A program made the position numbers and the translations under genes. From a virus, in the IMG/VR virus record IMGVR_UViG_3300018017_000005, positions 1 to 59,887 of that record: 59,887 bases of DNA. One strand, 5' to 3'. Below the pieces are notes generated by a model, which did no database searches, was not told where the DNA came from, and saw only the letters and a list, made by a program, of their open reading frames with translations. Positions 5,946-42,827 of the stretch are shown one piece after another. Positions within the stretch are counted from its first letter, which is position 1. Each line of letters starts with the position of its first letter.

Positions 5946-7721
5946 CTAGCTTTGATTGGTTGGCCCCGTATAGGGACTGAGTGGTTTACCATCGGGGCCT
6001 TCAATCGAAGGCGCGATGATGTCTGGGCGGCGGATTACTACCATAGACGACAACCAGCAAAACAAGAATGAGTGAAAGGAATCGTCTGGAGTACCCGCTT
6101 TATGGTCGTATTTGACCATGCGTAACGTGTCATTGTACTCGCTATAAATTGCCGTAAAGTCCTCAGCGAACGGCTTCTTGAACTCGTCCCATTTGGGGAA
6201 CTCGGCTTTACCTTTTTTGATGGCCTCAAAGATGGCGCTCATCACAGCGGTACGATGGACCTTCCAGCGCATCATTTTGACGTCAAATACGACCTTCTTA
6301 TTTATGCGCGCCATGTACTGAAACTGATGAACACGGGCGTTACCAAATGCGCGTACTAGGTGATGGTTCATCCCGAAACCATAGCCGTGGTCACAGCCTA
6401 TTGTGGCGGCATTGAAATGGTTAGCAGTGTCCAGAATGATCTTTATCTGAACGCCTGGATCTGCTTCCTCACCCACAAAGCGGTGCATGTACACGACACG
6501 AAAGCGATCCTTTACGTAAGTCGCTATCGTCATTACAGTGTAGCTGTTATTACCACTCCCCCAATCTATACCAAAAAAGAATGGCTCAGATAACGACTGG
6601 TTACGGATTGATTCCAGCTCCGATATCGAGTGTGTACCACACTGCGCCTGAAGCTGCGCTCTAGTGATTGGGCGAGTGCCGGCCTCATAAGAAATACCCA
6701 AACACTCATTCATAAACTGAGCGCGTGGATAATTTTCGTAGTCGTGCAGAACCTCACCCCAGCTACGGATCTTCCATGGCACCATGAGCTGAGGGATACG
6801 GTAGCTTTCCCAAGGTACCTTCTGCCGTTCTTCATCAGGCTCTACCATCCACGCCCATTGAGATCGTTCGCCTTGTGGATCAATTGCTTTTCCACACTTA
6901 GCGCATATTGGTCCCACTTTACCGATATTCTTCTCACCCAATATATTCCAGTTGCCGCACCCTTCGCAGGGAACAACCCACTCTCCCTGTGTACTCCTAT
7001 TCGCCCGGTACTCCTCCATGATGTTATCCAAGCTTTTGGGCGTACCTGAGTATGTATATCCTTTCCAACGCTCTATGGCGTGTGATGTGCACTGTTCAAT
7101 GATAGGAACACAAGCGCGAAGGATATCCTGGAATTCATCTATGCTTAATCTATCGACGGCGTTACCTCGCGTTCGATCGGCGTTGAGAAACGCATAACGA
7201 AGAACGATCTTTGAGCGGTTTATGAACTGCTTCTCAAAGATATTCTGACTCAGCATCCGCGTAGTAAACTGACTGAGTATGGGACTTGTCTCAATGGGCT
7301 CTTTAATGCGGTCATTCGAAAATGTCTTCGTCTGCGATGCGGAAGGGCTAACATACATTTGACGCAAACCCGCTACGAGCATAGCGTAACAAAGTGATCT
7401 ATTTCCGAGTAATGTCGTCTTTTCAGTCTGACGGGCTGCACACAGCAAAATACGCCGTGCTGGGCTGTCGTAAATTTGCTTTAAGTGCCGGCGTCCAGCA
7501 AAAGAAAAAGGTCCGTACCCAGTGCCGTCATCTTTAGGAATAAGAAATGTTCGCGCTGTGAACTGAGATGGGCGCAGTGCTGGTATACTTGGCGCGGTCT
7601 CTTTAGCTCTGCGCAAGACAATAGACTCTTCTTTAGGAGGTACTTCAGGCACCCAAGGCTCGTCATCAAACCAGGTATCGTCGTAGTCGTCCTCAGGCTG
7701 TATTTGTGCGGAGATACCCAT
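5946..7721 (-). CDS. terL: terminase large subunit
   Basis: 591 aa, the expected size for the packaging motor that pumps DNA into the prohead through the portal and cuts it. The ATPase part has a Walker A-like loop AARQTEKTT (about residues 93-101, with Glu where Gly is usual) and Walker B RLSIDEFQD (about 190-197). A four-Cys zinc ribbon follows (CEGC and CAKC, about 260-285). The RNase-H-like nuclease has GIDWGSG (about 385), GCDHGYG and a C-terminal PDDSFHS, giving the three expected acidic positions. GAGG lies about 7 bases before the ATG. The start overlaps the start of the divergent gene at 7720 by two bases. Confidence 0.93.
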   Translation of the reverse strand: MGISAQIQPEDDYDDTWFDDEPWVPEVPPKEESIVLRRAKETAPSIPALRPSQFTARTFLIPKDDGTGYGPFSFAGRRHLKQIYDSPARRILLCAARQTEKTTLLGNRSLCYAMLVAGLRQMYVSPSASQTKTFSNDRIKEPIETSPILSQFTTRMLSQNIFEKQFINRSKIVLRYAFLNADRTRGNAVDRLSIDEFQDILRACVPIIEQCTSHAIERWKGYTYSGTPKSLDNIMEEYRANRSTQGEWVVPCEGCGNWNILGEKNIGKVGPICAKCGKAIDPQGERSQWAWMVEPDEERQKVPWESYRIPQLMVPWKIRSWGEVLHDYENYPRAQFMNECLGISYEAGTRPITRAQLQAQCGTHSISELESIRNQSLSEPFFFGIDWGSGNNSYTVMTIATYVKDRFRVVYMHRFVGEEADPGVQIKIILDTANHFNAATIGCDHGYGFGMNHHLVRAFGNARVHQFQYMARINKKVVFDVKMMRWKVHRTAVMSAIFEAIKKGKAEFPKWDEFKKPFAEDFTAIYSEYNDTLRMVKYDHKAGTPDDSFHSFLFCWLSSMVVIRRPDIIAPSIEGPDGKPLSPYTGPTNQS

Positions 7722-17132: not shown

Positions 17133-18398
17133 TTACGGGCCCGGTACAAGAACTGTGTTACTACCATCTGCAACAAATCCAGTCATCATCGCTCCTGACA
17201 AGATTGTACCAGCACCCACTGTAGTCATAATTGGCACAGGGGTTGAAATTAGGATACTGACGGCAGAACCGACGCAGGCAACAGGAGCAGAACCACCATT
17301 AATCGCTACGGCACCGCTACCACCACCCAACTGAAGACCGCTTGCGCCGTTAATCGACACACCCTGAGCTGCATTAATTGTCAATGACTGCTTTGTTGTC
17401 AGAGTGATCCCTTGGTCAGCCGTTATCTGAAGCTTTTGCTTTATACGGATATTAACGCTTGCTTCTGAGCGAAGAAAGCCGGCTCCGGTGCTGTCGAAGA
17501 ACATCTTCAGCTTAGTCAAATTAGCAATACCATCTACAGGAGAGCCTGCTTCCGCATTAAAACCTGCGGGAGCGATTACAAACTCAGCGACGATAGGACC
17601 ATTTGTCCCAATGTTCAAGCTGGCATTTGTAGAGGCCTCTCCAGCATCTCCTGAGGGCTCGGGAACAGGTTGATGCACCTGTCCGATGGCTACTCGAAGA
17701 GTTGCTTGGTCGTCGTTGGCGAATAATCGAAAAGTTTGACGAAATTCGGTCTGAGGATTTGTATCCGTAAAACTTGTGGACAATCCCCAGTTAATAGACC
17801 CGCCGGTATTGTGGTGCTCATAGTTCTGGCTAATGTCTGTGATTATGTTGCCAAGGGGTATGTAAATACGCTGGGCTAGCTGCGTTGAGCCGACTTGAAG
17901 GACACCGCCACGGTGCATGATGACAAAGTTGCCATCGCGCCCCTGCCAGACCATATCTCCTGGCTTACCGCGAGTACGCCCACCAGCAAATACGGCTCCC
18001 TGATTCGTGCCCGTTGTATCAGCCGCTTGCTCTGCCGCGGTGCTTGTGGATGGATCTTCTGGGATCTCCATCGGCATAATAAACGCCAGCACAAAAGGCG
18101 GTGGGCCATCGCTTGGGATGCACACGAGACACTTCGCGTTAACTTCTGGTAGGCAGTACCAGCCCTCACCACGATTTGAGTGTAGGTATGGCCCTGCTAC
18201 TTGAATATTTGGATAGTATTTCTGGTCAAACTGAGAGCGCACATCGACAGTCCACGTTTGCAGATTAATGTCGATTACCCTCGCCTCATGAATGAACGCA
18301 GGACCGCCGCCATGCGGCTGCGTCCAGGACGTCCGCATACTGGTACGCTCGAGAGGCGTCGGCGTTGGCGTATGCGGATCTGTAATATAGCGAGACAT
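17133..18398 (-). CDS. baseplate central spike (gpV/gp5-like)
   Basis: 421 aa. Residues about 35-115 look like the OB-fold of baseplate spike proteins (EARVIDINLQTWTVDVRS, AKCLVCIPSDGPPPFVLAFI). A middle part has the GKPGDMVWQGRDGNFVIMHRG pattern. From about residue 310 short beta repeats follow (IRIKQKLQITADQGITLTTK, then SLTINAAQGVSINGASG), as in the triple-stranded beta-helix of gp5, gpV and VgrG. The spike pierces the outer membrane during contraction. Its ATG overlaps the stop of the RNA polymerase gene (TAATG), so it is expressed with it. Fold assignment is by pattern. Confidence 0.75.
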   Translation of the reverse strand: MSRYITDPHTPTPTPLERTSMRTSWTQPHGGGPAFIHEARVIDINLQTWTVDVRSQFDQKYYPNIQVAGPYLHSNRGEGWYCLPEVNAKCLVCIPSDGPPPFVLAFIMPMEIPEDPSTSTAAEQAADTTGTNQGAVFAGGRTRGKPGDMVWQGRDGNFVIMHRGGVLQVGSTQLAQRIYIPLGNIITDISQNYEHHNTGGSINWGLSTSFTDTNPQTEFRQTFRLFANDDQATLRVAIGQVHQPVPEPSGDAGEASTNASLNIGTNGPIVAEFVIAPAGFNAEAGSPVDGIANLTKLKMFFDSTGAGFLRSEASVNIRIKQKLQITADQGITLTTKQSLTINAAQGVSINGASGLQLGGGSGAVAINGGSAPVACVGSAVSILISTPVPIMTTVGAGTILSGAMMTGFVADGSNTVLVPGP

Positions 18399-21300
18399 TA
18401 GTACGCGTGAGTAGGAACGTCTTTAAGCTCAGTATGCGTAAATCGATTGGCCGATGTAAGACCAAACTGGGCTCCGTAAGCCATGCCAGGTATAGGCGAT
18501 ACGCCGTGCAAATCTGACACAGCGCCCAAAGCGGCACTGCGCATAATACCTTTTCGCAAACCCTCGGTATTCAACTGCGCCATCCAGTCTTCTTGAACCT
18601 CGTGCGGAAGAACGTCGATACCCTTCATAATAGGCGTGTGCTGAATTGGCTGAAGACCTTGTGCAACCAATTGTTTATTGGCCTCTTGAACTTTAGCACG
18701 CGAAGCGTACTGTCCCTTTACCATAGTTTCATGGTCTCCTGGGTCAATAACGCGCGTAAGGTCACTGATAGCGCGTACTACAGTCTCCGTATTTTGGCGA
18801 CGGACACCCTCCCTACCGTAAATATCGTGTAGCTCCGTAGCCAAATGCTCTTGAACCTTCGCCATGTTTCCTGTGACTTCGTACAGGTCGTGCGGATTTA
18901 CGTGCGTGCGCGACGGGTCGGTCAGCATATCCCCGGCGTTAACCTTCATACCGACCTTGATTCCAGACCAAGTGTCACCACCTGGAAGACGCGTAGCCTC
19001 AACACCAGGTAATGGCTTAAACAATGGATTGCCACGAGCATCGTTAGGCAAATGGTGCGCCACGCCACCAATCCAAGCTACGTGGCCTGTAGGATCCTCT
19101 TCAATTTTCTCAATGACCCCAGACTTACTTGCCAGTTGTGCCTGATCAGCGATTACTCGTGGCAGTTGAGTCAACTCTTGCACGCGGTCAAAGTCATTCA
19201 CCAAGCTAGAATTACGCTCAGCAAGCCCTCCTGAATGAAATTGTTTGAGCGTAAGCTGAGTAGCTCTTTCTCCTAACGCCTGCGTAGAGAGAATGCCGAC
19301 GTTGGTTCCCAAGGCGTAGTGCTGTCCATTCGATGCAAGCCCAGCACACTTCTGGCAAACGCCTGTACCATTGTCACATTTCATAGTAGATCGCACAAAC
19401 AAAGAGGCGTTTTTGTCTGCTGCTTTTATCGTTGAAGCAAGCTGTGGCGTAACAATGGTGTCTTTCTTGTAAGTCACCCCACCAATCGTGTGGTCTTGCG
19501 CAAGCGTGCGGTCGAATACATCCTGAGAATGTACAGGGATAGAAATACCGTTCTCGGTACCGCAATCATGCGCAGTTACCTGCAACCCCATGGTTGTGTT
19601 CATAAGCTGCTTGGTGAAATAACCAGGCTCTCTCACCTCTTGCACTTTGAGCACAGAACCACGACGGGCACCCGACATCGAACGCCAGTAAGAAGCAAGG
19701 TCTAACCCCTCCGTATAGCTCTTTGTAATAGGATCGGGGATGACATGGTTATTGCTGTCCACCATCAGCATAGGCGCCAAGCGCAGCTGACGATATTGAA
19801 TCGCGCTGGGCTTTACACCTGCCTGCTGCATCAACGCCAAATTATTTGGATTCTTAACGTTCTTAGCCGCGTGCTCTTTCTCCATCTTCTCTGTAGCGTC
19901 GAACCAGGCAGTCACAACGTGATGCTCCTTCTCAGCATCACTGAGGTCTGTACGCGCCTGAATCTGATCTACCTTTTTCTTAGCTTCGGCTACGATAGGA
20001 TCCCTAAGCCCTTTGTCGGGAGTAAAATCGTTAAGGCTGAATGAGTGCGTGCCCACAGCTATGTCTGTGCCGTTCAGCGCAGGATGCGTCATCGGGATTA
20101 CACCGAAAGAGGTATTGAACCCCAAGCGCATGAGCTTAGAAGCTGAATCTGCAAAATCTGGCTTATGGTCTTTAGCAAGTTTCGTGTAAAGCTTATCTAC
20201 TCCTTTTTTATCCAGTGTCATACCCAGATTATGCAGAACGTCTTGCTGCATTGGAGCCGGGACAGCGGCAGACAAAAGCACACGACCCGCTGTAGTTACT
20301 TTGTTACCTACAGTTGCCTGATCTGTAACGCTAAGATGCCCCTCTTGTACAGCTTTCAATAAATCTTCGTGCGTATCAAAGACCTTTTTGCTGTCCCCAG
20401 TAACGCGCGAAAGCTTGAACAGACCAAGATTTGATTCCAGCGTAGGCTGATAAACAACCCTACCGCTCGATTCGCTGGTGATGTTGTTTGAGGGAAGCAT
20501 GCGCTTTGCCTCTTCTACCGCATCATGTCCTATGGGCACGAATGCAGCCATCGTGTCCCAGACAACCAAACCGCCGTTTACGGCAAAAACTTTTGTCTCT
20601 GGAACAACCAAGTCGTACACGCGTTGTTTACCCAGAGACACTACAGAATCAATCAGGTCCCAATGAACGTCTGTAGCCAACACTAAGCGCCCCCACGCAT
20701 CGATACCTTCAATATTGGCGGCTTTTAGATAACCCAAGGCTTTTACAGCAGACGCTCTTGACAGGTAAGGTGCCTCTTTACGAACGGATTTAACAGTCGC
20801 TAGCTCGCTAGAAAAGGACGCGTCGGCGCCACATGGTTCCTTACTCAATGCGAGCAGCTCAAGTAATCTATGCGTGATCGGTACAATGTCTAAGTTATCC
20901 TTAAGTAACGTAGAAGGCGCCGAGATAAAGCTATTAGAATAAGGCCCTTCATGCGGAATATGACGCAAGACCGGAGAAAGACGTCCTATAGCCTGCGCTG
21001 GCGATAAATCTCGTACCTCTCCAGTCTCGTGGTCGTATACACATAGAGATTCATTCATGGAGGCTTCTACACTTAGACCCCTACGCATCGTGATGCGTGC
21101 GGTATCGCAGCCTTCTTCGATAGTAATATCTGTAGCCTTAGCCATTATACTATCTGCTGTCGCATGGTGGTAAGACCAAACCTCAATACCGGGCGGGAGC
21201 GAGTAAACAGACGCACCGTGCCTATCTACGCGACGTGTCGCTGCGAGATAAGGAATGTCCTTCAGCGCTGCATCTACCAGGTAACCCTGCGATGTCCTTG

Positions 21301-24300
21301 CAAGGATCTTCGTACTACCAGCAAATTTCATAGGTGACTCCTGAGGCCTAGCAAGCGCCTCAGGAGAGTCACGCCATAGCGCTTCAGGAATTGTCAAGGC
21401 TACTCTTGTACGACCTACAAAACAGTTACCATCAAAGTCCGCACCGAGGCCACCTGTTACTAGTGGGTGTATTCGAATTGCTTTACCTGGAGCGCGCTGC
21501 GCCCAAAATGCTTGAACACTGTGCTTATGCAGAACTGGGTCTCGCTTAAGCAAAACAGGTCGTTCCGCCATAACTCTATCCAGCGCTTTGTAAACAAGAG
21601 GATCTTTCTTACCTTGTTCAGCAAGCAAGGTATGCGCCTCTCGTGGAGTACTGGCGGCACCTAGCTCTTGAAGCTTTTGTACGACAAAAGGTCGAAACAG
21701 ATCCAACGCCTTCTTTTCTGGCAATCCGACGTAATCCAAATGAAGCCCGGCGTCTGGGGTTATTGTTCCGCGCATAGATAGGTCTTGTCGCCGGGACAAA
21801 AGAGTATCCTGGAACATACCTGTTTTAGGCGCACGGCCAGCAATCTGTAAAAGGATTCCCTTGGGATTCGTTCCGCGCTTTTCCCAGTTCTCTCCAACTC
21901 CCATAAGCGCCTTTACACTATCGTACAAAGCAGCTCTGTCTTCTTGTTTATCGTGGTCGCTCAAATACTTATAGTTGGGCCCCTGCATCTGAGATGCGAT
22001 ACCACCCGCTTGAACATAGAGCTTATTCAGATCCGCCTGCAGAATGTTGCCATTAGGCAGCACGCCAACAGGGCGCATAATAGGAGGAATAACAGGCAGA
22101 TTATTTAGGATATAAGCGTCTTTTGGATGAATTCCCGCTGTATCCAGCGCGGACAAATATCTTACGCGCTTTGACAGCGCATCGATCTTTTCTGTCCCAG
22201 TTCTATGCGCTATATTCTCTGGGATCTTGTACTTATCCAAATCCTTTTGCGCCTGAGCCAACTCTGCCTTTAGGTCAATGCGCTCCAACAAATGCGCGAT
22301 GCCAGGCCCTCCTGCTTTGGCGCCCTCAGTGCCTAAAGGTACAATCTTCCCATCCTTTACCGCGGATTTGCCCTCGATAATATCCGCATAAGCACCCTGT
22401 TTTAGCCCTAGTACCTTTTGAATAGCATCTTCAAAAATTGGGTTAGGCACAGGCTCTGGTAATTTGATGTGGGACCAATTGGTACCATTTAATCCGCCCG
22501 TAATTACAGGATCAAGCACTCCGCCTTTTCTAGGTACAGGCTCCCCGTGCCTATCCATTTTTGTGTAAAGGGCATAAGCCGGCTCAGGCAGCTCCCCCTT
22601 GCTCATGGACAACACCTGCTTATCCGTCATCGGCATGACTTGAATTTGATGCCCCTTTTTTACGACATCAATTCCGGCCGCGCGGAGCATGTCCTCGAAT
22701 TTCTGGAAGGCAAATGTCTTCTTGGGTGGTGGCGGAGTCTCTCCTGTTTGAATCGCTCGCCATACTTCGTTATGAAGACTGTCCCACTTCTCTTTACGGT
22801 CTGGACCTTCGCTCTTCCAAGTTTGGAATTCCCTTATATTATGTACCGCTCCATGTCCGAGAAGGCCGTACATGCCTAGATTACCCATGGACTGCCCACC
22901 CGTCTTACCTCCTTGAGATGGCAGCAGTGTCTCCGCGTCATAAGACTCAGGCTCTGCCCCTTCCAATGGCATACCCGACCTGGCGCTCACCTTTTTATCG
23001 ATCTGGAAATTGAGCTGAAGCATGTGCTGTTTACCTGTAAGCGCATGCCCCAAAGAGTGACCGCTAATTGGATCAATCAGCTCTTCTGTGTCCGATAATC
23101 CATGAGTAGCCAGCTCCTTTTTGACCCTATCGAGCGCATCAACACCGGGCTCAAAATTGTTAACGATGTAGGGCTTACCTGTCTTCTCAGCGATCTTAGA
23201 CGCGACAGTTTCAAGTATCTGTCCAGGATTAATACGCCCTGGGACACCGCTTGGGCTAAGGAGAGCTTCTAATGGAGTCCCGTCCACCGTATGTGGCATA
23301 TCTTTGTCTGGCAAGATACATGAAATTACGCCTTTGTTGCCCGCTCTTGCACTGAGCTTAGACCCTACCTGGAGAGGCTCTACTGTCTTTACGTGCACAG
23401 TTACATTGCCACTGCTATCTCTGCGCACACCCACTACTTCTCCTGGGTGATCACCCTTCCAAGCAAGGCTGGTGTCTAGCGTCTGGCTACCTAGGCTTTT
23501 ACGAATTTTACTAAGCGAAAAAGAGCCGTGGGATTCAAATGGCCTTGAAGCCACAACGAGCGGATCGCCAGGCTTAACTATCTGGCCTACGCGAACAATG
23601 CCCTCGTCATCCAGCCCAGCGAGCTGGCTCTTTTCATACGCAGTAGGGTGCAGTGCCTTAAACTTCGATAGGCCGGTAATTGCGTCTGGGCCCAAGGTAA
23701 CTGATGGCTTATGCATGTGCTCGCTAGCCATTTTCTGAGCCGCGGTTTCGCTAACTACAATCCCATCCTCAAAATTCAAGCCCTTGTAATTTACGTAGCC
23801 AACCCTGAGGTTCTTGCCTAGAGCCAACGTGCCATTACGCGTGAAGTTATTATCAGCCAACAGCTGCCCACTCTTTACCTCATCACCTTCTTTAACAACC
23901 GGGGTGCTGTGCAAAACAGCCTTAGCGTCATTAAGCGGGTAATTGTTATAGATGCTAACGCGCTGTTCTTTACCATCTTTTCCTGTGAGCGTAATAGCAT
24001 CAGGTGTTACTGAAGTAACCTTACCCTCAATAGGAGCGATGTGAGCCGACTGGCGTCCAATAAAATCCTCAAAGGTCCGAACACCTTCTTGGCGCCCTGT
24101 ACCTGACTGAACGAGCGGCGCATCACGGTCATGAAGACTAATAGCCTGCTCGATGTGGTGTGTGGCGTAGCTGACCCTATTCCCAGAGTTATTCCCCATA
24201 AAAGGGATGAGGTTAGTGGTGTAACTAAATAGCTGACTGGGACTACGCATTACGTAGTCGGCGTCCTCAAACTTGCCAGTACCCAGATCATTACCCTTTT

Positions 24301-25687
24301 TTGACAGGGCTACGGTTTTAGCGACAGGAGTGGGCGTGTTCTTGTTCCATGTAACCTGGTCAGGAAGAACAACTACTGAATTGTGGTAAGCAACTGGGTC
24401 AATCTTGTCCATCTTCTTTGTCTTCAGGTTAAAGACAGAGATAACTGGATTGTTGCCCTCTTTAGTAACTCCTAGAGGAAGGCGGCAAGTAATACCTGTC
24501 TTACCACCTTCTGGCGTCGCCAACCCATCCAAAAAACCGAGATGGCTAGGACTTACCAGTTTGGCCGAATCGCTAATAGCGTTCTCGCTTTGAATTCCAC
24601 CAGGACCCATAATGGTGGTTTGAAAGCTGGAGGAGAGCATCTCAACGGGGTTTACTTGGTCGGCATCTCTAGCCAACGAGTTTGCTGTAAACGTGGCTTT
24701 TACCGGTGCGTCGAACATGCCCCCGCGAACTACCTGACGAATACTTGTAGCGGTGTTGATCTGCCTATCCGTGCGTGCCTTCAATGCCGCCTTCGTCTTC
24801 CAGGCGCTTAAACTGTCTTTGGCGAAATCAGCTACTGTACGAAGATCCTTAAACGCCAAACTATCCCGCTCATCTTCTGGGATATCACCGCGCTGCACCC
24901 CAATCATTTTTGTGGTGGTGTCGTGCAGCACAGCACCGTTTACATTGGCGTAAGGCTTGCCTAACGTGATGAGTGTAGAATCAGGACGAAGCTTAGACTC
25001 TGCCATGGTATCAATGAAATACTGCCTCGCTTCTTCCGTGCTACCTGGCGCCCTCTTCTTGTCTGCCTTATAAAAGCGCTCCAGAGCCGTACCCGTTGCT
25101 CTTGCGCTTCTATTAGCCGCCAAGATGCCCTTACCCCAGGATTTCTGAAGAGTGTCGTCATCGACACCAAGCTCTTTCATCAAGGGATATACGGGGATAT
25201 TCTCAGAGGTACCGCGCGACATAGAAAAAACGTGTGTCTTTGGGTCCAACGTAACGTCAAAACGGTTCTTACCCTGAACATTGAACTGAGTTTTTAGCTC
25301 GCCGTTCTCTTTACGCTGCGTGTACGCACCAGGCTTAAGACGCCACTGGTTATCGAATTGGCACTCGCGGCCATCGACAATGTACGAATAGCGCTGTGTC
25401 ATGTAGGGCAAATCGGTAAGCTTGATCGTCTTTTTATCAACGACCGCTCCTGTGTCGTTGTTTTTCATAACAAGCGTACCGAAAACAGGCACTGCCCAAG
25501 ATTGTCCATTGATCTTGGCTTGATGCTGACCTGTAATGTCAGACATGTCCTTATCGCCCTCGCGGACATCCAAGGATTCCAGGTGAATGCTCTGCTTGGA
25601 CCCCACGATAGGAAAATGAGATCGAATCCCATCGACTACGTTTTGCTGCAAGTCGGCAAACGCTTTCTTAGGGTCTAGATAGGCCAT
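18398..25687 (-). CDS. fused beta-beta-prime DNA-directed RNA polymerase with intein
   Basis: 2429 aa (2139 after removal of the 290-aa intein). The beta part has TNLIPFMGNNSGNRVSYAT (about 490), GYVNYKGLNFEDGIVVSE (about 635), GNKGVISCILPDKDMPH then GVPGRINPGQILET (about 775-822), and a beta C-terminal GMYGLLGHGAVHNIREFQ. The beta-prime part has NLPVIPPIMRPVG, PVLLKRDPVLHKHSVQAF, GKAIRIHPLVTGG, the metal loop GADFDGN (1415-1421, split by the intein), NNITSESSG, a zinc-like CDNGTGVCQKC (about 2106), the trigger loop LTLKQFHSGG and a C-terminal clamp. All main regions of a bacterial core enzyme are present in one chain; alpha, omega and sigma are not seen. First gene of the leftward tail operon; TAATG-coupled to the spike. 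Confidence 0.95.
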   Translation of the reverse strand: MAYLDPKKAFADLQQNVVDGIRSHFPIVGSKQSIHLESLDVREGDKDMSDITGQHQAKINGQSWAVPVFGTLVMKNNDTGAVVDKKTIKLTDLPYMTQRYSYIVDGRECQFDNQWRLKPGAYTQRKENGELKTQFNVQGKNRFDVTLDPKTHVFSMSRGTSENIPVYPLMKELGVDDDTLQKSWGKGILAANRSARATGTALERFYKADKKRAPGSTEEARQYFIDTMAESKLRPDSTLITLGKPYANVNGAVLHDTTTKMIGVQRGDIPEDERDSLAFKDLRTVADFAKDSLSAWKTKAALKARTDRQINTATSIRQVVRGGMFDAPVKATFTANSLARDADQVNPVEMLSSSFQTTIMGPGGIQSENAISDSAKLVSPSHLGFLDGLATPEGGKTGITCRLPLGVTKEGNNPVISVFNLKTKKMDKIDPVAYHNSVVVLPDQVTWNKNTPTPVAKTVALSKKGNDLGTGKFEDADYVMRSPSQLFSYTTNLIPFMGNNSGNRVSYATHHIEQAISLHDRDAPLVQSGTGRQEGVRTFEDFIGRQSAHIAPIEGKVTSVTPDAITLTGKDGKEQRVSIYNNYPLNDAKAVLHSTPVVKEGDEVKSGQLLADNNFTRNGTLALGKNLRVGYVNYKGLNFEDGIVVSETAAQKMASEHMHKPSVTLGPDAITGLSKFKALHPTAYEKSQLAGLDDEGIVRVGQIVKPGDPLVVASRPFESHGSFSLSKIRKSLGSQTLDTSLAWKGDHPGEVVGVRRDSSGNVTVHVKTVEPLQVGSKLSARAGNKGVISCILPDKDMPHTVDGTPLEALLSPSGVPGRINPGQILETVASKIAEKTGKPYIVNNFEPGVDALDRVKKELATHGLSDTEELIDPISGHSLGHALTGKQHMLQLNFQIDKKVSARSGMPLEGAEPESYDAETLLPSQGGKTGGQSMGNLGMYGLLGHGAVHNIREFQTWKSEGPDRKEKWDSLHNEVWRAIQTGETPPPPKKTFAFQKFEDMLRAAGIDVVKKGHQIQVMPMTDKQVLSMSKGELPEPAYALYTKMDRHGEPVPRKGGVLDPVITGGLNGTNWSHIKLPEPVPNPIFEDAIQKVLGLKQGAYADIIEGKSAVKDGKIVPLGTEGAKAGGPGIAHLLERIDLKAELAQAQKDLDKYKIPENIAHRTGTEKIDALSKRVRYLSALDTAGIHPKDAYILNNLPVIPPIMRPVGVLPNGNILQADLNKLYVQAGGIASQMQGPNYKYLSDHDKQEDRAALYDSVKALMGVGENWEKRGTNPKGILLQIAGRAPKTGMFQDTLLSRRQDLSMRGTITPDAGLHLDYVGLPEKKALDLFRPFVVQKLQELGAASTPREAHTLLAEQGKKDPLVYKALDRVMAERPVLLKRDPVLHKHSVQAFWAQRAPGKAIRIHPLVTGGLGADFDGNCFVGRTRVALTIPEALWRDSPEALARPQESPMKFAGSTKILARTSQGYLVDAALKDIPYLAATRRVDRHGASVYSLPPGIEVWSYHHATADSIMAKATDITIEEGCDTARITMRRGLSVEASMNESLCVYDHETGEVRDLSPAQAIGRLSPVLRHIPHEGPYSNSFISAPSTLLKDNLDIVPITHRLLELLALSKEPCGADASFSSELATVKSVRKEAPYLSRASAVKALGYLKAANIEGIDAWGRLVLATDVHWDLIDSVVSLGKQRVYDLVVPETKVFAVNGGLVVWDTMAAFVPIGHDAVEEAKRMLPSNNITSESSGRVVYQPTLESNLGLFKLSRVTGDSKKVFDTHEDLLKAVQEGHLSVTDQATVGNKVTTAGRVLLSAAVPAPMQQDVLHNLGMTLDKKGVDKLYTKLAKDHKPDFADSASKLMRLGFNTSFGVIPMTHPALNGTDIAVGTHSFSLNDFTPDKGLRDPIVAEAKKKVDQIQARTDLSDAEKEHHVVTAWFDATEKMEKEHAAKNVKNPNNLALMQQAGVKPSAIQYRQLRLAPMLMVDSNNHVIPDPITKSYTEGLDLASYWRSMSGARRGSVLKVQEVREPGYFTKQLMNTTMGLQVTAHDCGTENGISIPVHSQDVFDRTLAQDHTIGGVTYKKDTIVTPQLASTIKAADKNASLFVRSTMKCDNGTGVCQKCAGLASNGQHYALGTNVGILSTQALGERATQLTLKQFHSGGLAERNSSLVNDFDRVQELTQLPRVIADQAQLASKSGVIEKIEEDPTGHVAWIGGVAHHLPNDARGNPLFKPLPGVEATRLPGGDTWSGIKVGMKVNAGDMLTDPSRTHVNPHDLYEVTGNMAKVQEHLATELHDIYGREGVRRQNTETVVRAISDLTRVIDPGDHETMVKGQYASRAKVQEANKQLVAQGLQPIQHTPIMKGIDVLPHEVQEDWMAQLNTEGLRKGIMRSAALGAVSDLHGVSPIPGMAYGAQFGLTSANRFTHTELKDVPTHAY
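20555..21424 (-). mobile_element. intein in RNA polymerase catalytic loop
   Basis: 290 aa, residues 1422-1711 of the polymerase, between GADFDGN and TMAAFVP, exactly in the metal-binding loop of beta-prime. Block A is CFVGRTRVAL with Cys1; the block B region is VEASMNESLCVYD; block F is RVYDLVVPETKVFAVNGG; the end is LVVWD followed by Thr+1. Relative to standard inteins, block B Thr-x-x-His reads Ser-Met-Asn-Glu, the penultimate His is Trp and the final Asn is Asp. No LAGLIDADG motif is evident, so the roughly 150 extra residues may be a decayed endonuclease. Whether it splices is open. Confidence 0.85.
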
Positions 25688-27256: not shown

Positions 27257-27567
27257 TGAAGCCAGAACGCGTTTACGTAATTCGACATGCGCTCGATCGC
27301 TTACGTGAGAGGTGGCCTGAGGCTACCGCCTTGAGCGATCGAGCCTTGCGGCAACAAATAGAAGGCAACATCGCAAAGGCAGAAAAACAGCAAACAGCGC
27401 TACGCACCCCTGGAGGTACTTATATACCGTTTCTATTAGGGGACAAGCACGGTTTTCTCGTCGTTCAAAACAGCAAAGTAATTACTATTTTAGGCTCCGA
27501 ATATTGCGGAGACGTGACTGATTTTCTTACAGAGCGAAAGCAGGAGAAAGAGAATGGATCGATTTGA
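27256..27567 (+). CDS. small hypothetical protein
   Basis: 103 aa from the ATG at 27256, which overlaps the previous stop and has AAAGGGG just upstream; an in-frame start further left inside the previous gene lacks this support. The N-terminus (ERVYVIRHALDRLRERWPEA) is helical, the end beta-rich (GFLVVQNSKVITILGSEYCG). The pattern resembles small toxin-like or mRNA-interferase-like folds such as those with a conserved His-Ala-x-x-R-x-x-R helix, but this is weak. It lies directly before the AAA ATPase gene. Confidence 0.7.
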   Translation: MKPERVYVIRHALDRLRERWPEATALSDRALRQQIEGNIAKAEKQQTALRTPGGTYIPFLLGDKHGFLVVQNSKVITILGSEYCGDVTDFLTERKQEKENGSI

Positions 27568-28786
27568 GTCTCTTATGGTTGTCTGCATGTCTACACCGCT
27601 AGCCTCAGGGCCTGACGCGCCATACCAGCATGGAAATATGGGCATCAACCTGAACGCCATTGGAGGTTCAGGCGTAGGAAAAAGCGCACGCATCCGTGAA
27701 ATCGGTAAAGCGCTAGGCCTCAACGTTTACTCTATTTTCACAGCAACAAAGACACCTGAACATATTGGTGGCTTTCCAGTAATGACACCGCGCGGCTTCA
27801 CACTGGAATGTGCCATGCCCCAAATTAGGGCAGCTATTAGCGACGAGCGCGCCATCATATTTTTGGACGAGATTTCCTCTGCGCCAAGAGCTGTACAAGC
27901 AGCTATCCTTTCATTTCTTAACGAACGAACTGTGGGTGAATACACACTGCCTCCAGGTATTCGTCTGGTTCTCGCAATGAATCCGCCTGATATCGCCGCA
28001 AACGGTAGGGATCTTGAAGTACCCCTAGCCAACAGAGTGCTTCACTTCCAGTATGAGACACCAGCGCTAAACCAGTGGAAGGAGTACATGATGGGTACTT
28101 ATGACCCTGGTATTTCCAAGATACATGACAGCGACGAATTGGTACGGCTTAATTGGCGCGCGCACTATGTAAACGTTCTTGGTACAACCGAAGGCTACTT
28201 GGTAGCTGCGGGGGGCAAGTACAAAGAAAAGAACGAGGCGGGCGAAGAGGTAGAACGCTCCAAGCTCTACGATCAGCCTGAAGCAGACAGTCCGCGTGCA
28301 TCCAAGGCATGGCCATCTCATCGTACCTGGTCCTGGGCCGTAAACGGGGTCACAACCGCGCGATGCCTAGGGATGGGTATCACCGTGCAGACAGATATCG
28401 TGGAGGGCCTGGTGGGCAAAGGGTTGGCCGCAGAGTGGACGGCCTATGCTAAGAAAGTCAATCTGCCCCATCCGTTGGATGTTCTATCCGGCAAATGGCA
28501 GATCCCCAAGCAACTCGATGTAGTGCGCACCGTGTTGTCCTCTTGCGCGGTTTACGTAGCCCAAGAAAAGAATGCGGAGCTAAAAGCACAGCTCGGTACT
28601 GCGTGCTGGGCATTATTGCACACAGCTGCAACAGCTGGTTATGCTGACTTGAGTGTTAGACCAGCTGGTACCTTGCTCCACGCAGGTCTTGACCTTGCCA
28701 GCCCTGTTGAAGCTGTTCGAGACGCAGCAAGCAAAATGCTAGAGCTCCTTAACGACAAAGACCACACCAAGTACATTCCTCGATGA
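27554..28786 (+). CDS. MoxR-type AAA+ ATPase
   Basis: 410 aa. Walker A is GGSGVGKS at residues 37-44, Walker B IIFLDEIS at about 100-107, and a sensor-1 AMNPP follows at about 140; the order and spacing fit the MoxR/AAA_5 group. MoxR ATPases usually act as chaperones with a partner carrying a von Willebrand A domain. The next gene, overlapping by four bases (ATGA), encodes just such a partner, which supports a functional pair. The C-terminal 200 residues are helical and less typical. Confidence 0.85.
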   Translation: MDRFESLMVVCMSTPLASGPDAPYQHGNMGINLNAIGGSGVGKSARIREIGKALGLNVYSIFTATKTPEHIGGFPVMTPRGFTLECAMPQIRAAISDERAIIFLDEISSAPRAVQAAILSFLNERTVGEYTLPPGIRLVLAMNPPDIAANGRDLEVPLANRVLHFQYETPALNQWKEYMMGTYDPGISKIHDSDELVRLNWRAHYVNVLGTTEGYLVAAGGKYKEKNEAGEEVERSKLYDQPEADSPRASKAWPSHRTWSWAVNGVTTARCLGMGITVQTDIVEGLVGKGLAAEWTAYAKKVNLPHPLDVLSGKWQIPKQLDVVRTVLSSCAVYVAQEKNAELKAQLGTACWALLHTAATAGYADLSVRPAGTLLHAGLDLASPVEAVRDAASKMLELLNDKDHTKYIPR

Positions 28787-30144
28787 TAACGCCACAAGAC
28801 GAGCAGCGCGTAAGAGAAAAGCTATCTCTCGGACGTGCTTATGTACTATCTAGAGCGGATTACTACAGTAGTATTCTACTAGAAATGTCTGTCGAGGTTG
28901 TTAGCAATGCCACCGTAACTATGGGAGTTACCAAAGGATTGGTGCTGTACGTTAACGGTGAATGGCTGCTTAACGACCCTGAGATGCAAACCGATGAAGT
29001 AATAGGTGGCTGCCTTGTCCATGAATGCGAGCATCCATTACGTGGGCTAGATCGTCTGGAGGCACTACCCGATAAAGCTCTAGCTAACATTGCTGGGGAC
29101 GAAGCCATTAACCTCAATCTGCGCGAAGAGCAATGGCAATTACCTTCTTGGGTTGTTTATCCTGAACGATATGGGCATCCCCCAAATTTAACTCTTGAGC
29201 AGTACTACGCGTTGTTGAGCGACCAGTTGCTGCAAGAAAATAAAACGCTAGAGCAGCTAATGGCCGACGCCCCTCAAGGCGGAGGTGGAACAAAGGGCAA
29301 CGGGAAGAACCAAAATAAAGGTAGCGGTCTAGGCAATAAGCAACAAAAACAATGGACGCCTAAAATAGGCGCAGGTGGATGTGGTTCTGCTGGCGGATAC
29401 GCCGTAGACGAAAGTCTTGAAGCAGAGCTTGACACCGCCTATGGCAAAGGCCCTAGTGAGGTAGAAAGCGCGCGTAGACAAACCTTTGATGCAATTGAAA
29501 AAGCGCTAGAATCTGGAAAAGGCTGCGGAAACATACCTGGGCGCTTCAAAGAGCTTCTCAAAATTAGGTACCAAGTGCCAGACGTCAACTGGCGCTCTTT
29601 TCTACGCCGCATTCTTCAGCGCGCATTAGAACGCACAATTGGAGACAGCGATTACTCTCTAAGCAACCCTAGCTTAGGAGGTCAATTAGCTGGCTGTATA
29701 ACTTCGGGCCTAGTCGACCAGAAAATCAACGTAGTTATCGCTGAAGACACATCTGGATCGATGGGTGAGCCACAGTTACTTAACGCGCGCAGCGAGGCAT
29801 ATCACCTGATACGCGCCGTAGGTATCGATGAGGCCATCCACATCCAATCCGACATGGTAGTGCAACACGAGAAGCGCATAAGACTGCGTGACCTACCTAA
29901 GTTAGCCTACCATGGACGCGGCGGCACCGACTTTAACGCTGTTTTTGAACGCGTTAATAAGCGGTATCCAGAAACCAATTTGCTAGTTTATTTCACGGAT
30001 GGCGATGGGCGCGCGCCAGCTAAACCGCCACGGAACTTCGATGTAGTTTGGTGCATTATTCGAACAGAGCACGCCAGACGTCCCGCTCACTGGGGACATG
30101 TTGTTGTATGCGATAAAAATCAAAAGCTGGAGGAACCTTACTAA
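28783..30144 (+). CDS. metallopeptidase-like / VWA protein (DUF2201-like)
   Basis: 453 aa. The N-terminal domain has HECEH at residues 80-84, a zinc-peptidase HExxH, followed by AGDEAINLNL as in DUF2201-type proteins. A Gly/Lys/Asn/Gln-rich linker (about 165-200) leads to the C-terminal VWA domain with the metal site DTSGSMG at about 321, plus GRGGTDF and YFTDGDG further on, matching the MIDAS pattern. It is coupled to the MoxR gene. Such MoxR-VWA pairs remodel protein complexes; here the target is unknown. Both the protease and the MIDAS residues look intact. Confidence 0.85.
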   Translation: MITPQDEQRVREKLSLGRAYVLSRADYYSSILLEMSVEVVSNATVTMGVTKGLVLYVNGEWLLNDPEMQTDEVIGGCLVHECEHPLRGLDRLEALPDKALANIAGDEAINLNLREEQWQLPSWVVYPERYGHPPNLTLEQYYALLSDQLLQENKTLEQLMADAPQGGGGTKGNGKNQNKGSGLGNKQQKQWTPKIGAGGCGSAGGYAVDESLEAELDTAYGKGPSEVESARRQTFDAIEKALESGKGCGNIPGRFKELLKIRYQVPDVNWRSFLRRILQRALERTIGDSDYSLSNPSLGGQLAGCITSGLVDQKINVVIAEDTSGSMGEPQLLNARSEAYHLIRAVGIDEAIHIQSDMVVQHEKRIRLRDLPKLAYHGRGGTDFNAVFERVNKRYPETNLLVYFTDGDGRAPAKPPRNFDVVWCIIRTEHARRPAHWGHVVVCDKNQKLEEPY

Positions 30145-30530: not shown

Positions 30531-31170
30531 AGCCCTTGTTTTGTGCCAGCTTCCTTGCGGTGCTCGCGTTTCTAGCGTTCGTGTAATGAATAACCATAGA
30601 AACGACTGAGACAACGAGCCCCAATACTGCGATGACTTCAATAACGTAGTCACGAAATGTCTTCCCAGTATTCTGGGCGTTGGCTACCGTAACTGTTTCT
30701 AGCCGCGTCACTAAATTATCAGCGCGATCCATAAGGCCATCTACACGATCTAAAAGCTGATTGGCGTCTGCTACTGTTGCCTTACGCTCTTCATCTGTTT
30801 TTGTAAGCAGATTCGCGGCAATGCTCTCAACGCGTTGCTCTACGTCAAAGGCCATCGTGTGCTCAGTTCGTACTACCTGATTAAGCCCCTTTTGTTCCTC
30901 AATTAGTATGGGCTTAGCAACTACTGGGACACCTGCAGCAATCGCTTGAGCACCAGCGTCGACTAGATCAGCAACAATGGGAGGTCCTTGAACAGCAACA
31001 GCGCTAAGTGCGCCTGCTGCCACCGCATCTCCGGCACCTTGAAGCACCTTTCCTGCGGCGCCACAGCCTATAAGGTGGAGTAACAGGACGCCAGTAATAC
31101 AGATGGCAGCTAACAGCGAAGCTACGCTGAATGGTAACCGCCCTATAGGCGTAGAAACACGACGTATCAT
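30529..31170 (-). CDS. candidate unimolecular spanin (lipoprotein with C-terminal TM)
   Basis: 213 aa. The N-terminus is a signal peptide with a perfect lipobox L-I-G-C at residues 33-36, predicting an outer-membrane lipoprotein. The middle (about 105-165) is charged and heptad-like (VEQRVESIAANLL, LLDRVDGLMDRADNLVTRLE). A strong membrane segment follows at about 174-194 (EVIAVLGLVVSVVSMVIHY) with a basic tail. Lipobox plus C-terminal inner-membrane anchor is the hallmark of u-spanins, which fuse inner and outer membranes at lysis, though this one is longer than T1 gp11. An internal-membrane virion protein is the alternative. Its start overlaps the helicase gene end by four bases. Confidence 0.6.
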   Translation of the reverse strand: MIRRVSTPIGRLPFSVASLLAAICITGVLLLHLIGCGAAGKVLQGAGDAVAAGALSAVAVQGPPIVADLVDAGAQAIAAGVPVVAKPILIEEQKGLNQVVRTEHTMAFDVEQRVESIAANLLTKTDEERKATVADANQLLDRVDGLMDRADNLVTRLETVTVANAQNTGKTFRDYVIEVIAVLGLVVSVVSMVIHYTNARNASTARKLAQNKG

Positions 31171-32657
31171 GTTGCTTCCGCATTAGGTAGCAGAGCCTTC
31201 ATTTGGTTAATAAGAGCATCTTTCTTGCTACTGAGTGCAGCTAAATATTGGTCCGAGCTTCCGCCAGTATTTTTACCTAAAATTGCGCCCGATAACCCTG
31301 TACGTTTTGGTCTCGTCGCCAAGTAATTCTCGATGAGTACCTTACGCTCTGCCTCGGGCAGATGCTCGTGGCTACCAAAACGGATACCTCGCCCTTCTAC
31401 TTGACGCAGCTTCTCATTATTCCAATGGGGATCCAGCACTTGCATTAGCCGCGTGCCTTTGAGGTCGAGCCCTTCGCCACCGGCTGAGGATAAAAGTAGC
31501 GCTTTTAGCTTACCTTCGTTGTAGTCGCGAACCATTTGGTCGCGCTCTTTCTTGGGCATTTCGCCTGTGAACAAACCGTGCGGTATACCAGCTTGCTCCA
31601 GCTTTTGATGATAAGGGTTCAACCCACTTTCGAGGTAATTTGAGTAAATTACCGCGCGCGCATTAGGGTTCTCCTTAAAGGTGTTCTGCAGGCTTCCAAA
31701 AGCTGTTTCTATCTTGGGCTCATGGGGTGTCTGACCTGGAGCAAAGCCACGCGTGGTGTTCGACACTTGCCTTACCGCGTTGATAAAGGCGTTAAGATCT
31801 TTCGACTCCTGCTTACTAGGAGGTAGTCCTTGCTTGACCTTATACCGTACCCAAGCTGGCGCATTACCCATTAAAGCGTCGTAGACTTTAAGCTGCTCAT
31901 CGCTCATAGGGACTTCGACGTTCTTACGCTCGACAGTAGGAAATCCCTCTGTGCTGCCTGGATGGTAATCCACCCACTTCTTGAACGTGTTCTTGAGCTC
32001 CGGCACCGCCCTGGGATTAACTATCTCCTCCATCCCTGGTTTCGCACCATGAGCCAAGCTACCCCACAGCGATGGCTTTACCTGCTTCTCGGAAATATAC
32101 CGCTTATTGAACTCAGTCTGGTCATTCGGCAAAACATTATGACCTGCGGCCATGTTAATAAGCGGGGCAATATCACTCGGCCTATTGTAAAAAGGACTAG
32201 CTGTAAGAAGCATTCGCTTCTGCGTACCCTTCAGACTGTCCCTCAGGTTCTGATACGTGCTGGAGCCGACCTCACGAGCTCTATGCGCCTCATCTACGAT
32301 AGCCATGGGGTGTTCTGCAGGCAGCGTTCCGCCGGCCCGTGACAGCGCTTGCAGTGAGGAAACGGCTATTGGTTGCTCTGTGCCTGGTACAAGGTGCTTC
32401 GCCCGCTCCTTCTCGTAGTTCGTTTGAAGCGCCGCGGGCAGAATAACGTTAGCAGGCATGCCTAGGGCATCTTGCGCCGCCATTGATGCGAGGCTCTTAC
32501 CTGATCCGAGCCCATGTGCGACAACTAGCCCCGGTTGGTCATCCTGAAGCATCCTATCGACAACGCGCTGCTGATGTGGCTTTAAACTAGTAGCTACATC
32601 AGCAATTTTGGTAAATTCGTCGCAGAAGGCTTTGAATAAAAGCACGACTAATCCCAC
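31167..32657 (-). CDS. SNF2-type helicase with virion-like N-terminal tag
   Basis: 496 aa. Superfamily 2 motifs in order: I HGLGSGKS (about 49-56), II DEAH (about 121), III LLTASP, V SSAGGEGLDL and VI RQVEGRGIRFG; the wide split and motif V/VI form fit the SNF2 group. It should use ATP to move along double-stranded DNA or strip proteins. It opens with FCDEFTKIADVAT, the same tag as FVDELEKIA in the putative virion gene at 36143, and lies among structural genes, which suggests it travels in the particle. Coupled to the spanin and the DUF6527-like gene. Confidence 0.85.
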   Translation of the reverse strand: MGLVVLLFKAFCDEFTKIADVATSLKPHQQRVVDRMLQDDQPGLVVAHGLGSGKSLASMAAQDALGMPANVILPAALQTNYEKERAKHLVPGTEQPIAVSSLQALSRAGGTLPAEHPMAIVDEAHRAREVGSSTYQNLRDSLKGTQKRMLLTASPFYNRPSDIAPLINMAAGHNVLPNDQTEFNKRYISEKQVKPSLWGSLAHGAKPGMEEIVNPRAVPELKNTFKKWVDYHPGSTEGFPTVERKNVEVPMSDEQLKVYDALMGNAPAWVRYKVKQGLPPSKQESKDLNAFINAVRQVSNTTRGFAPGQTPHEPKIETAFGSLQNTFKENPNARAVIYSNYLESGLNPYHQKLEQAGIPHGLFTGEMPKKERDQMVRDYNEGKLKALLLSSAGGEGLDLKGTRLMQVLDPHWNNEKLRQVEGRGIRFGSHEHLPEAERKVLIENYLATRPKRTGLSGAILGKNTGGSSDQYLAALSSKKDALINQMKALLPNAEAT

Positions 32658-32964: not shown

Positions 32965-35022
32965 CTACACCAACGCTTGCATGCGCCTTGGCGGAAGCAT
33001 GCCTGGTAATGGACGTTGATCTACATTACCTGTGTCTGACCCGCCTTGCGCACCGCCAAGCATTAGAGCTTGACCCGCTGAGCCCTTTTGAATTTTAGCT
33101 AAATCCTCAGCGACCAAATCAGCAAGATCCTGATTTTGAGCCGCTATAGCATTGAGGGCCATTTCCTGCATATCTGGCTGAAGATCTGATATTTGCGCAG
33201 CGTAACCTTCGGCGAGCTGAATGAGATCTACTGGCAGCTTCTCACCACCAGCTTCCGCACCTAGGTCTTGTCCCTGGCTCAACGAGCTGGCGGCACTTTG
33301 CGGAATAGAAGACGACCCACCGCCTTCTGGGGGTGCTGGGAGCATAGGGGGTAACGGGGGCTGCTGGCCTTGCTGCTGAGCCTGAGCAGCGTTCATTGCC
33401 CCCTCTGGCCCATCTGGCTCGCCAGGTGCAGCAGGCTGCTGCTGTGCCTGGGCCATAGTTTGCTGAGCTTTGGCCTGCATCTTCATCATGATGACCTGGC
33501 TCTCGCCTTGAATTTCGGCCATAGCAAGCTGTTGCTTCTTGACCGCGGCAAGACGTCTCGCGCTCTCGCGAACCATGATGTCGTTCTCTTCTTCCATATC
33601 GAGATCGGCATCAGCAAGTAGGGTCGTATCACTAACTTTGTTTCCTGCGTTAAGCTGGAACAAGTAGCTCTTACGCTGCATATCGTCGGCCATCTTAAAT
33701 GGCTTAAGCCGCACGTTGACCTTCGGCCATCCCATAAAATGAGAGACCAAGCTCATAATCCATTTCAGCTCTTGGCGACGCCTACCAATGTAGCTTAAGA
33801 AGGAGTTTTCTACCATACGCATAGACACGTTGGTACCGCTCCAGCTTGCTCCACCTTTTATGAACTCAATCGGAACACCTAAACCGTTAATGATGCTCTC
33901 GCCAAGCTGTTGCATTTCTTGACCAAGCAAAAGAGCTTTACCATCACCACCTATAGTTTGATTACCAATAGGTAATGGAACTATAGGCACGTAGGCATTA
34001 TCCTGTCTCCAACGGGCTATTTCCATAGCCACTTGATCCCGCCAATCAAGTAAATTGATACTAGAGAACGGGTCCGTTGACCCGGAAGCAGCTTGTGGAA
34101 ATAAAATGCGTAGTGGGACGATATGTTCTAGCATCAGACTTTCTGACGCCTTTTTCATTATTTGAAGATAAAACGCGTCCTTAAGTACAGGTAAGATCAA
34201 GGGAATCCCCCATCCTCGATCTTGAAAAGCAAGTGTGGCGCGCTTCATTACAAACAGATTCGCTTTGCTGAATACCACACCTTTTTCTTGCCGAATTGCC
34301 TGCAAGAAAATCTGAGGCATTCCCTCAACGATATCTTTCTTACCCAGCGTAATATCCGCGCGCATGGGGGCAGGGATCGTATAGAAATACGTAGTATCCC
34401 CGCTAATATCGTTATAGCTGACTTCGACGTCCTCTACGTTCCAACGCACTGGACGCACAGAGCTTGCGTCGCGGTAGTACCAATCCTTAGGCGTTGCTGC
34501 CCCAGTTTGTCCGCATTTAGGACAAGAGAGTCGAAACTCATTACTGGTGTAGAGCCAATACTCTCGAATTTTGCGCGCCTGCTCGCTAAAGCCACACGAT
34601 GTACAAGTCAGATACTTTTGAAACGGAAAGGATAGACTTACGGCGCTTGTACCATAACAAAAGTAGTCTAATCCGCTCTCGATCTGATGCGATCGAATAC
34701 GAATTGTCTCGTTGAAATACTCTGACCACATCCGCACCACTTCTGGGTCTTCGTGATCGACAACGACATCCGTAATAGGATATTCAGACAGCTTGGTAAT
34801 ACACGCGTTGATGATAGGGTTGGTTAGAAAGTAATACCGACAAAACTTGAAAAGCTGCTTAACCGTTGTCGGCAAGTAGGTATGCGCAATATCAAAGAAG
34901 GGGCTAGGGTAGTTAACTCCCTGAACGTTACTTCCGTTGATACGCCCGCGCGTCATCCCGCCTTGGAAGCGGCCTGGGCTTGTAGGGGATCCTAACGCAA
35001 AATTGCCGAAGGAGAAGCTCAT
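32965..35022 (-). CDS. portal protein
   Basis: 685 aa. The portal ring is the DNA gate of the head. Typical features are a helical N-terminal part, NPIINACITKLSEYPITDVV, LDYFCYGTSAVSLSFPF, a stem/crown-like middle with LPVLKDAFYLQIMKKASESL, and GLGVPIEFIKGGASWSGTNVSMR followed by VENSFLSYIGRRRQELK. An extra four-Cys zinc ribbon lies at about 140-175 (CTSCG and CPKCG), seen in some large-phage portals. From about 510 the tail is Gln/Pro/Ala-rich and disordered. The ATG overlaps the stop of the 373-aa gene by four bases. The large terminase is far away at 5946. Confidence 0.88.
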   Translation of the reverse strand: MSFSFGNFALGSPTSPGRFQGGMTRGRINGSNVQGVNYPSPFFDIAHTYLPTTVKQLFKFCRYYFLTNPIINACITKLSEYPITDVVVDHEDPEVVRMWSEYFNETIRIRSHQIESGLDYFCYGTSAVSLSFPFQKYLTCTSCGFSEQARKIREYWLYTSNEFRLSCPKCGQTGAATPKDWYYRDASSVRPVRWNVEDVEVSYNDISGDTTYFYTIPAPMRADITLGKKDIVEGMPQIFLQAIRQEKGVVFSKANLFVMKRATLAFQDRGWGIPLILPVLKDAFYLQIMKKASESLMLEHIVPLRILFPQAASGSTDPFSSINLLDWRDQVAMEIARWRQDNAYVPIVPLPIGNQTIGGDGKALLLGQEMQQLGESIINGLGVPIEFIKGGASWSGTNVSMRMVENSFLSYIGRRRQELKWIMSLVSHFMGWPKVNVRLKPFKMADDMQRKSYLFQLNAGNKVSDTTLLADADLDMEEENDIMVRESARRLAAVKKQQLAMAEIQGESQVIMMKMQAKAQQTMAQAQQQPAAPGEPDGPEGAMNAAQAQQQGQQPPLPPMLPAPPEGGGSSSIPQSAASSLSQGQDLGAEAGGEKLPVDLIQLAEGYAAQISDLQPDMQEMALNAIAAQNQDLADLVAEDLAKIQKGSAGQALMLGGAQGGSDTGNVDQRPLPGMLPPRRMQALV

Positions 35023-42453: not shown

Positions 42454-42827
42454 TGGATTCTGGTACTCGTCGGCTGGTAGGAAAACTGGCGGATCTAGCC
42501 TTTAACGCTGACAGCTCACGGCTGTCAGAGGCCATCACCGTGCACGAAGCGCTCACCCTGCACTGCCAGTCTATTAAGGTGATGACACCTCAAGGCCCTG
42601 GGTATCTCTACGAGCCCAATATGACGGCCGTTGATGGCGCGGACGATGCCGTAGACATTACGGTACGTCCTTCCAGCATCCGGCGCTTTAGTGAGATGGA
42701 CGACAACGAGCGGAACGCCTACAAGGCCATGCGCGAAAACGTGCTGGAAAACCTGCAGCGCAATCGTCTTGCAAGGTTGGGCATCACTCAGGCATCACAG
42801 GTTCCGAAAGGAGGCTTACTGGTTTGA
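42405..42827 (+). CDS. hypothetical protein
   Basis: 140 aa, not recognised. It overlaps the end of the helicase gene by 49 bases. The middle (GPGYLYEPNMTAVDGADDAV, then DITVRPSSIRRFSEM) is beta-rich, and the C-terminus helical (NERNAYKAMRENVLENLQRNR). It ends with a TTGA overlap into the glycosylase gene, so the genes are translated together. Function unknown; perhaps an accessory to helicase or repair. Confidence 0.65.
   Translation: MEIEKNGHSSDHLWAVVDSGTRRLVGKLADLAFNADSSRLSEAITVHEALTLHCQSIKVMTPQGPGYLYEPNMTAVDGADDAVDITVRPSSIRRFSEMDDNERNAYKAMRENVLENLQRNRLARLGITQASQVPKGGLLV

Follow-up and report, generated by a model that had tools for sequence, protein, structure and literature searches.

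The virus record analyzed here (the window, a linear IMG/VR record of 59,887 bases that is probably a fragment of a larger genome) carries on its minus strand a single ORF, opening with ATG at position 25687, that encodes beta and beta' of an RNA polymerase as one chain. Both halves of the product are backed by sequence profiles and by two AlphaFold models of high confidence, and the gene is best read as specifying a bacterial-type RNA polymerase with its whole catalytic core on a single polypeptide. Most likely (probability about 0.6), the enzyme is a virion-carried, alpha-less, single-chain polymerase that works with a sigma factor of its own, packaging being judged from the homologue in Salmonella phage Arash. 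The one-chain design is not unique to the window, and occurs in many uncultured phages.

The polymerase gene, its intein and its neighbours

Pfam searches of the 2429-aa ORF recovered Rpb2_3, Rpb2_6, Rpb1_1 (weak), Rpb1_2 and Rpb1_5 in the bacterial order, and the top NCBIfam model was the Helicobacter-type fused beta/beta' (E 5e-138), at a score far under the curated cut-off of that model. Matches in PHROGs were to unnamed families and to RNA-polymerase families. Based on alignment, the chain holds the TPEG, NFEDG, GxK..GNK, SGVPGRIN, DFDG, Zn-2 and trigger-loop motifs, while the N-terminal beta' zinc finger was missing from it. An earlier note on this DNA had described beta and beta' regions in bacterial order at 18398-25687, in a near-complete chain with a mature length of 2139 residues; Pfam, NCBIfam and the motifs agreed with this description and placed the gene on the minus strand, the zinc finger being the part that is absent, and the mature length corresponds to 2429 residues minus a 290-aa intein.

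The same note had proposed profile searches and structure prediction against RpoB and RpoC, and by both approaches the two halves were bacterial-like. The AlphaFold model of a relative (L014/L102), spanning from the beta barrel to beyond the beta' barrel (1092 aa; pLDDT 88.3, pTM 0.80), contained the beta and beta' barrel regions in one chain, and a second model covered the C-terminal half of the window's beta' (residues 1712-2429; pLDDT 87.0, pTM 0.82). The best PDB matches in Foldseek were bacterial RpoB (E 3e-37) and RpoC (E 4e-41), the TMq between the model of residues 1712-2429 and bacterial RpoC being ~0.75; VIA Z ranged from 32 to 38, for the beta part only. Foldseek searches against viral models returned known viral polymerases only, none of which outscored the bacterial chains. 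Coordinates of the annotated features are given in Table 1.

Table 1. Features of the polymerase gene and of neighbouring genes in the window.
Feature	Position	Strand	Basis
Large terminase subunit, GpA type (PF05876)	5946..7721	-	Pfam; Arash homologue
Baseplate spike-like protein, 421 aa; start overlaps polymerase stop as TAATG	17133..18398	-	DUF2345 weak match; D69 homologue
Single-chain beta-beta' RNA polymerase precursor, 2429 aa (2139 aa minus intein)	18398..25687	-	ORF, Pfam, PHROGs, NCBIfam
beta'-like part including intein, residues 990-2429	18401..22720	-	Pfam Rpb1_1, Rpb1_2, Rpb1_5; AlphaFold model of residues 1712-2429 similar to bacterial RpoC
Trigger-loop motif GILSTQALGERATQLTLKQFHSGG, catalytic His retained	19226..19297	-	Alignment
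Cys cluster CDNGTGVCQKC, counterpart of C-terminal beta' zinc site	19346..19378	-	Alignment
Bridge-helix motif SGARRGSVLKVQEV	19634..19675	-	Alignment
Intein, 290 aa, residues 1422-1711 (C1 ... D, +1 Thr)	20555..21424	-	Exact gain relative to intein-free homologues; L002/L003 alignment; PF14890
Catalytic loop DFDGN, third triad Asp replaced by Asn, codon AAC	21425..21439	-	Alignment, codon reading
beta-like part, residues 1-989	22721..25687	-	Profile A2 positions 1-986; Pfam Rpb2_3, Rpb2_6
GSKLSARAGNKG: both active-site lysines retained (E. coli beta K1065, K1073 by alignment); GDK replaced by GSK	23330..23365	-	Alignment
SNF2-type helicase, homologue of Arash virion helicase gp217 (E 4e-95)	31167..32657	-	Homology
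Portal protein, homologue of Arash gp204	32965..35022	-	Homology

Compared with intein-free relatives, the chain had a single insertion with clean borders just past the catalytic loop, DFDG(D/N), and showed the residues expected at the ends of an intein and behind it (C1422, D1711 and T1712). The insertion aligned with the same-site inteins of L002 and L003, which have a LAGLIDADG-like segment that the window intein lacks, and matched PF14890 (Intein_splicing) weakly (E 7.6e-5, under the curated cut-off). Splicing would convert the 2429-aa precursor into the 2139-aa enzyme. The third catalytic Asp was present in 104 of 106 distinct sequences, Asn being found only in the window and in L002; both of these have a Cys-1 intein directly after the loop, whereas the Asp is retained where the intein at this site appears to be of the Ser-1 type. 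By known intein chemistry the Asn would remain in the mature enzyme. The effect of a catalytic D-to-N change is judged here from general knowledge, and with DFDGN in the loop full activity of the window polymerase is uncertain.

Across the polymerase lineage, at least seven intein insertion sites were observed, most of them inside universally conserved motifs (TPE/G, GDKM/S, GNKGI/C, LNP/C, DFDGD/T, the trigger loop FH/SGG, and one near beta position 588; the slash marks the site). The intein-bearing loci were L002, L003, L008, L013, L030, L043, L073, L077, L081-L084, L086, L093, L095, L097 and L158.

The gene lies among structural genes, and the window's large terminase subunit, portal, helicase and spike, together with one structural protein, have homologues in Arash or in Vibrio phage D69. 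The spike-like gene is homologous to the D69 gene located just upstream of the PAAR gene, and in at least 74 loci, partly redundant, its homologue headed the list of downstream neighbours lying no more than 200 nt away. The earlier note had placed a complete fused core among tail genes and coupled it directly to the baseplate spike; the location among structural genes was supported by the gene content, and the coupling by the overlap of the two genes and by the position of the D69 homologue. In addition, a MoxR-like AAA ATPase and DUF2201 VWA/metallopeptidase pair was found upstream of the polymerase on the opposite strand (27554-30144), homologues of which were counted more than 80 times over related, partly redundant loci, and a uracil-DNA glycosylase superfamily gene was located at 42824-43696.

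Relatives, phylogeny and the mReC polymerases

Three alignment-based scans of IMG/VR yielded 248, 327 and 474 confirmed matching stretches. Among the matches listed, there were at least 84 distinct complete one-chain enzymes including the window (at least 83 besides it), as well as at least 67 distinct enzymes of a two-part type, in which beta and the N-terminal part of beta' form one chain and the C-terminal part of beta' is separate. Clustering by shared 6-mers resulted in 82 clusters for the 84 one-chain sequences and 65 for the 67 two-part ones. Ten matches were obtained in GTDB genomes, L177 and L178 being of the one-chain type, and the isolated two-part relatives were Salmonella phage Arash and Vibrio phages D69, D148 and D181. 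The earlier implication that the complete fused core stands alone therefore did not hold. No paper on a full-length fused phage beta-beta' enzyme was found in the open-access literature, which was covered in part, and no biochemistry of the lineage was found in the literature.

The polymerases of Arash (gp206 and gp216), D69, D181 and D148 share approximately 30% identity with that of the window over the length. Beta and the N-terminal part of beta' lie in one ORF in Arash and D69, homologous to that of the window, but the C-terminal part of beta' has its own gene instead of continuing in one chain; the break falls ~85-110 aa past DYDGD, and there is no intein at the catalytic loop. These phages have a portal homologous to the window's (in Arash, also the large terminase subunit and the virion helicase), and both Arash and D69 have a gp10-type sigma. 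The paper on Arash annotated gp206 as beta and left the fusion unremarked (PMC10585845). A split intein was considered as the origin of the Arash break and rejected, as gp206 continues beyond DYDGD and the break is further downstream. Also discarded as relatives were two wastewater records labelled 'Staphylococcus/Enterococcus phage' with rpoB and rpoC (L020, L021), which look like bacterial contigs and are probably contamination, and, as near kin of the window, the Rhizobium, Cobetia and Yersinia phages, with their non-fused genes, other capsid and remote place in the phylogeny; when the Rhizobium beta' served as query for a single-protein scan, no match was obtained. Among variant arrangements, the beta part of Vibrio phage D181 (L019) consists of two ORFs with a homing endonuclease gene in between; three MAG contigs (L182, L183, L186) encode a shorter fused beta-beta' of ~1,280-1,470 aa from which much of the N-terminal beta is absent, L182 being cut by the contig end; and a Woesearchaeota MAG contig (L243, L244) has divergent, possibly viral beta genes, one of which adjoins a beta' gene.

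Phylogenetic analysis (FastTree; IQ-TREE LG+F+R5, the latter a topology without completed bootstrap) gathered the fused phage sequences into a single clan, which a branch of ~0.6 substitutions separates from the bacteria and archaea sampled. In both trees the one-chain and two-part types were sister clades (L083 and L097 are labelled FUS, yet belong to the two-part type). The trees were built with few bacterial phyla, generously kept columns and simple models, and contain no mReC, phiKZ, Helicobacter or Wolbachia sequences.

The paper on the mReC polymerases (Weinheimer and Aylward 2020, PMC7481178) describes beta and beta' subunits of tailed phages that branch deeply and separately from those of cells; in its main text, 'fused' and 'fusion' are applied to crAssphage alone, and inteins do not come up. 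The markers of that group are the capsid family PF07068, a capsid gene having been detected in just 8 of 97 contigs, and the terminase family PF03237, to which all of the 17 terminases with a Pfam match (out of 31) belonged (PMC7481178). PF07068, searched in 29 plus 22 records, was absent from 47 of 47 records with a fused polymerase, comprising 24 one-chain records (23 long ones from IMG/VR plus the window, itself probably a fragment) and 23 two-part records (21 from IMG/VR plus Arash and D69), and present in the four non-fused records tested, namely Cobetia phage Carin-5, Yersinia phage GN1 and L285, with separate beta and beta' genes, and Rhizobium phage TM21B, in which only a separate beta' gene was seen. 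The window terminase belongs to PF05876 (E 6e-11) and not to PF03237. Since neither marker was found in the window, its polymerase was not filed as mReC, a separation judged from the markers and the published description. Like mReC, the window is a Caudovirales contig with beta and beta', though in one ORF. To pass the published filter, a beta' must contain NADxDGD without a break (PMC7481178), so the window, where GADFDGN is followed by the intein, would fail it; intein-free relatives carry ADFDGD, and intein-free fused proteins would pass.

It is conceivable, although we do not favour it, that the polymerase is an mReC polymerase whose fusion went unremarked in 2020, as both come from source data of the same kind (IMG/VR), represent a deep phage branch and have tail, portal and terminase genes nearby, the published filters would admit an intein-free fused protein, and one tree groups the fused clade with phages having non-fused genes; the capsid and terminase markers, together with a description in terms of subunits and without inteins, argue against it. 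A recent acquisition of a fused bacterial rpoBC, by contrast, appears extremely improbable. The fused RpoBC of Helicobacter and Wolbachia is cellular, measures ~2,850 aa and has alpha available in the cell. It is likewise a single-chain beta-beta' in the same order (NCBIfam PRK09603, PRK14844), and a Helicobacter model was the top NCBIfam match, yet this match scored far under its cut-off and the phage sequences formed one clan on a long branch outside the sampled bacteria, Helicobacter and Wolbachia not being in the tree. Recent bacterial capture, which the earlier note had named as one outcome that would overturn its proposal, is thus not supported by these trees of few phyla.

Sigma factor, alpha subunit and the virion

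As noted earlier, neither alpha nor sigma genes were found in the window, a linear 60-kb record and probably a fragment. No alpha match was obtained in 26 records, the control being positive in 13 of 14 genomes. Of 23 long one-chain records, 19 had a sigma-70-like gene similar to Arash gp10, as did D69, several of the homologues matching Pfam sigma region 3 and sometimes region 4; given this frequency, the absence of sigma from the window is probably explained by its being a fragment. How such a polymerase finds promoters, previously considered wholly open, now has a candidate answer in these gp10 homologues. Each one-chain record had one beta locus, extra rows being intein-split pieces of a single ORF.

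Virion proteomics, which had been suggested as a check for packaging, has been published for the two-part relative Arash with a positive result (PMC10585845). The virion set includes the polymerase proteins gp206 and gp216, the sigma factor gp10 and the helicase gp217 (PMC10585845), gp206 being the most detected protein, with 128 unique peptides (PMC10585845, Table 2), the counts for gp216, gp217 and gp10 being 40, 38 and 24, and those for the capsid and portal proteins 30 and 32 (PMC10585845). With 116 proteins, the table includes many enzymes, and its authors allow for carry-over of abundant infection-stage proteins (PMC10585845). Computed per 100 aa from these data, peptides amounted to 8.4 for gp206, 6.6 for gp216, 10.3 for gp10 and 8.1 for gp217, compared with 1.4 for ribonucleotide reductase alpha and less than 1 for other helicases.

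By analogy with its Arash homologue, reported as a virion protein, the window polymerase would travel in the particle and enter the cell along with the DNA. With no alpha subunit, the covalent link between beta and beta' would replace the assembly platform that alpha otherwise provides. Co-occurrence suggests that the enzyme uses the gp10-family sigma-70-like protein to start phage transcription. Since there is one such polymerase per long record, it may also act later in infection.

A rather unlikely alternative is a late, non-virion enzyme, made during infection for late genes and present in Arash particles through carry-over. Its location among structural genes would suit this role, and metabolic enzymes occur in the same preparation from which carry-over was proposed (PMC10585845), but the polymerase, gp10 and gp217 were as densely covered as capsid and portal, which the metabolic enzymes were not, and with a single polymerase of this type per record a late-only function would leave early transcription to the host. 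It seems quite improbable that the window polymerase is catalytically dead or weak, serving as a virion or scaffold protein: the Asn shared only with L002, in both cases beside a Cys-1 intein, and the GSK in place of GDK point in that direction, against which stand the long, intact ORF, the retention of the remaining catalytic motifs and an identity of ~66-75% to the closest relatives in the best segments.

Comparison with other phage polymerases and significance

The virion and non-virion polymerases of phiKZ and AR9 consist of four or five polypeptides, with two enzyme sets per phage (PMC7598289). They resemble the window lineage in being phage homologues of beta and beta' without alpha, one set of which is packaged (PMC7598289), and differ from it in their split chains, where the window has one ORF, and in having no recognisable bacterial sigma (PMC7598289). 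The tail-tape-fused vRNAP of P23-45 and its nvRNAP gp64 (PMC10770324), YonO and the crAss-like RNAP are single-chain two-barrel enzymes, some of them virion-borne; P23-45, YonO and crAss-like polymerases are far from bacterial RNAP in sequence, whereas the window chain readily aligns to bacterial beta and beta'. The earlier proposal of a lineage distinct from the phiKZ-like split and the YonO/crAss-like reduced enzymes is supported by these differences. More speculatively, and in our view unlikely in its full form, the relatives could make up a large tailed-phage lineage, non-mReC by its markers, with a virion alpha-less single-chain polymerase and a dedicated sigma, some members being intein-gated and off until spliced.

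A full-length single-chain beta-beta' enzyme that pairs with a sigma of its own and dispenses with alpha would offer structural and mechanistic studies a compact, bacterial-like polymerase, and since the relative Arash has been isolated in the laboratory, its packaging, injection and pairing with sigma can be tested directly. Moreover, fusion, splitting and repeated intein invasion within one clade bear on the relations between phage and cellular polymerases.
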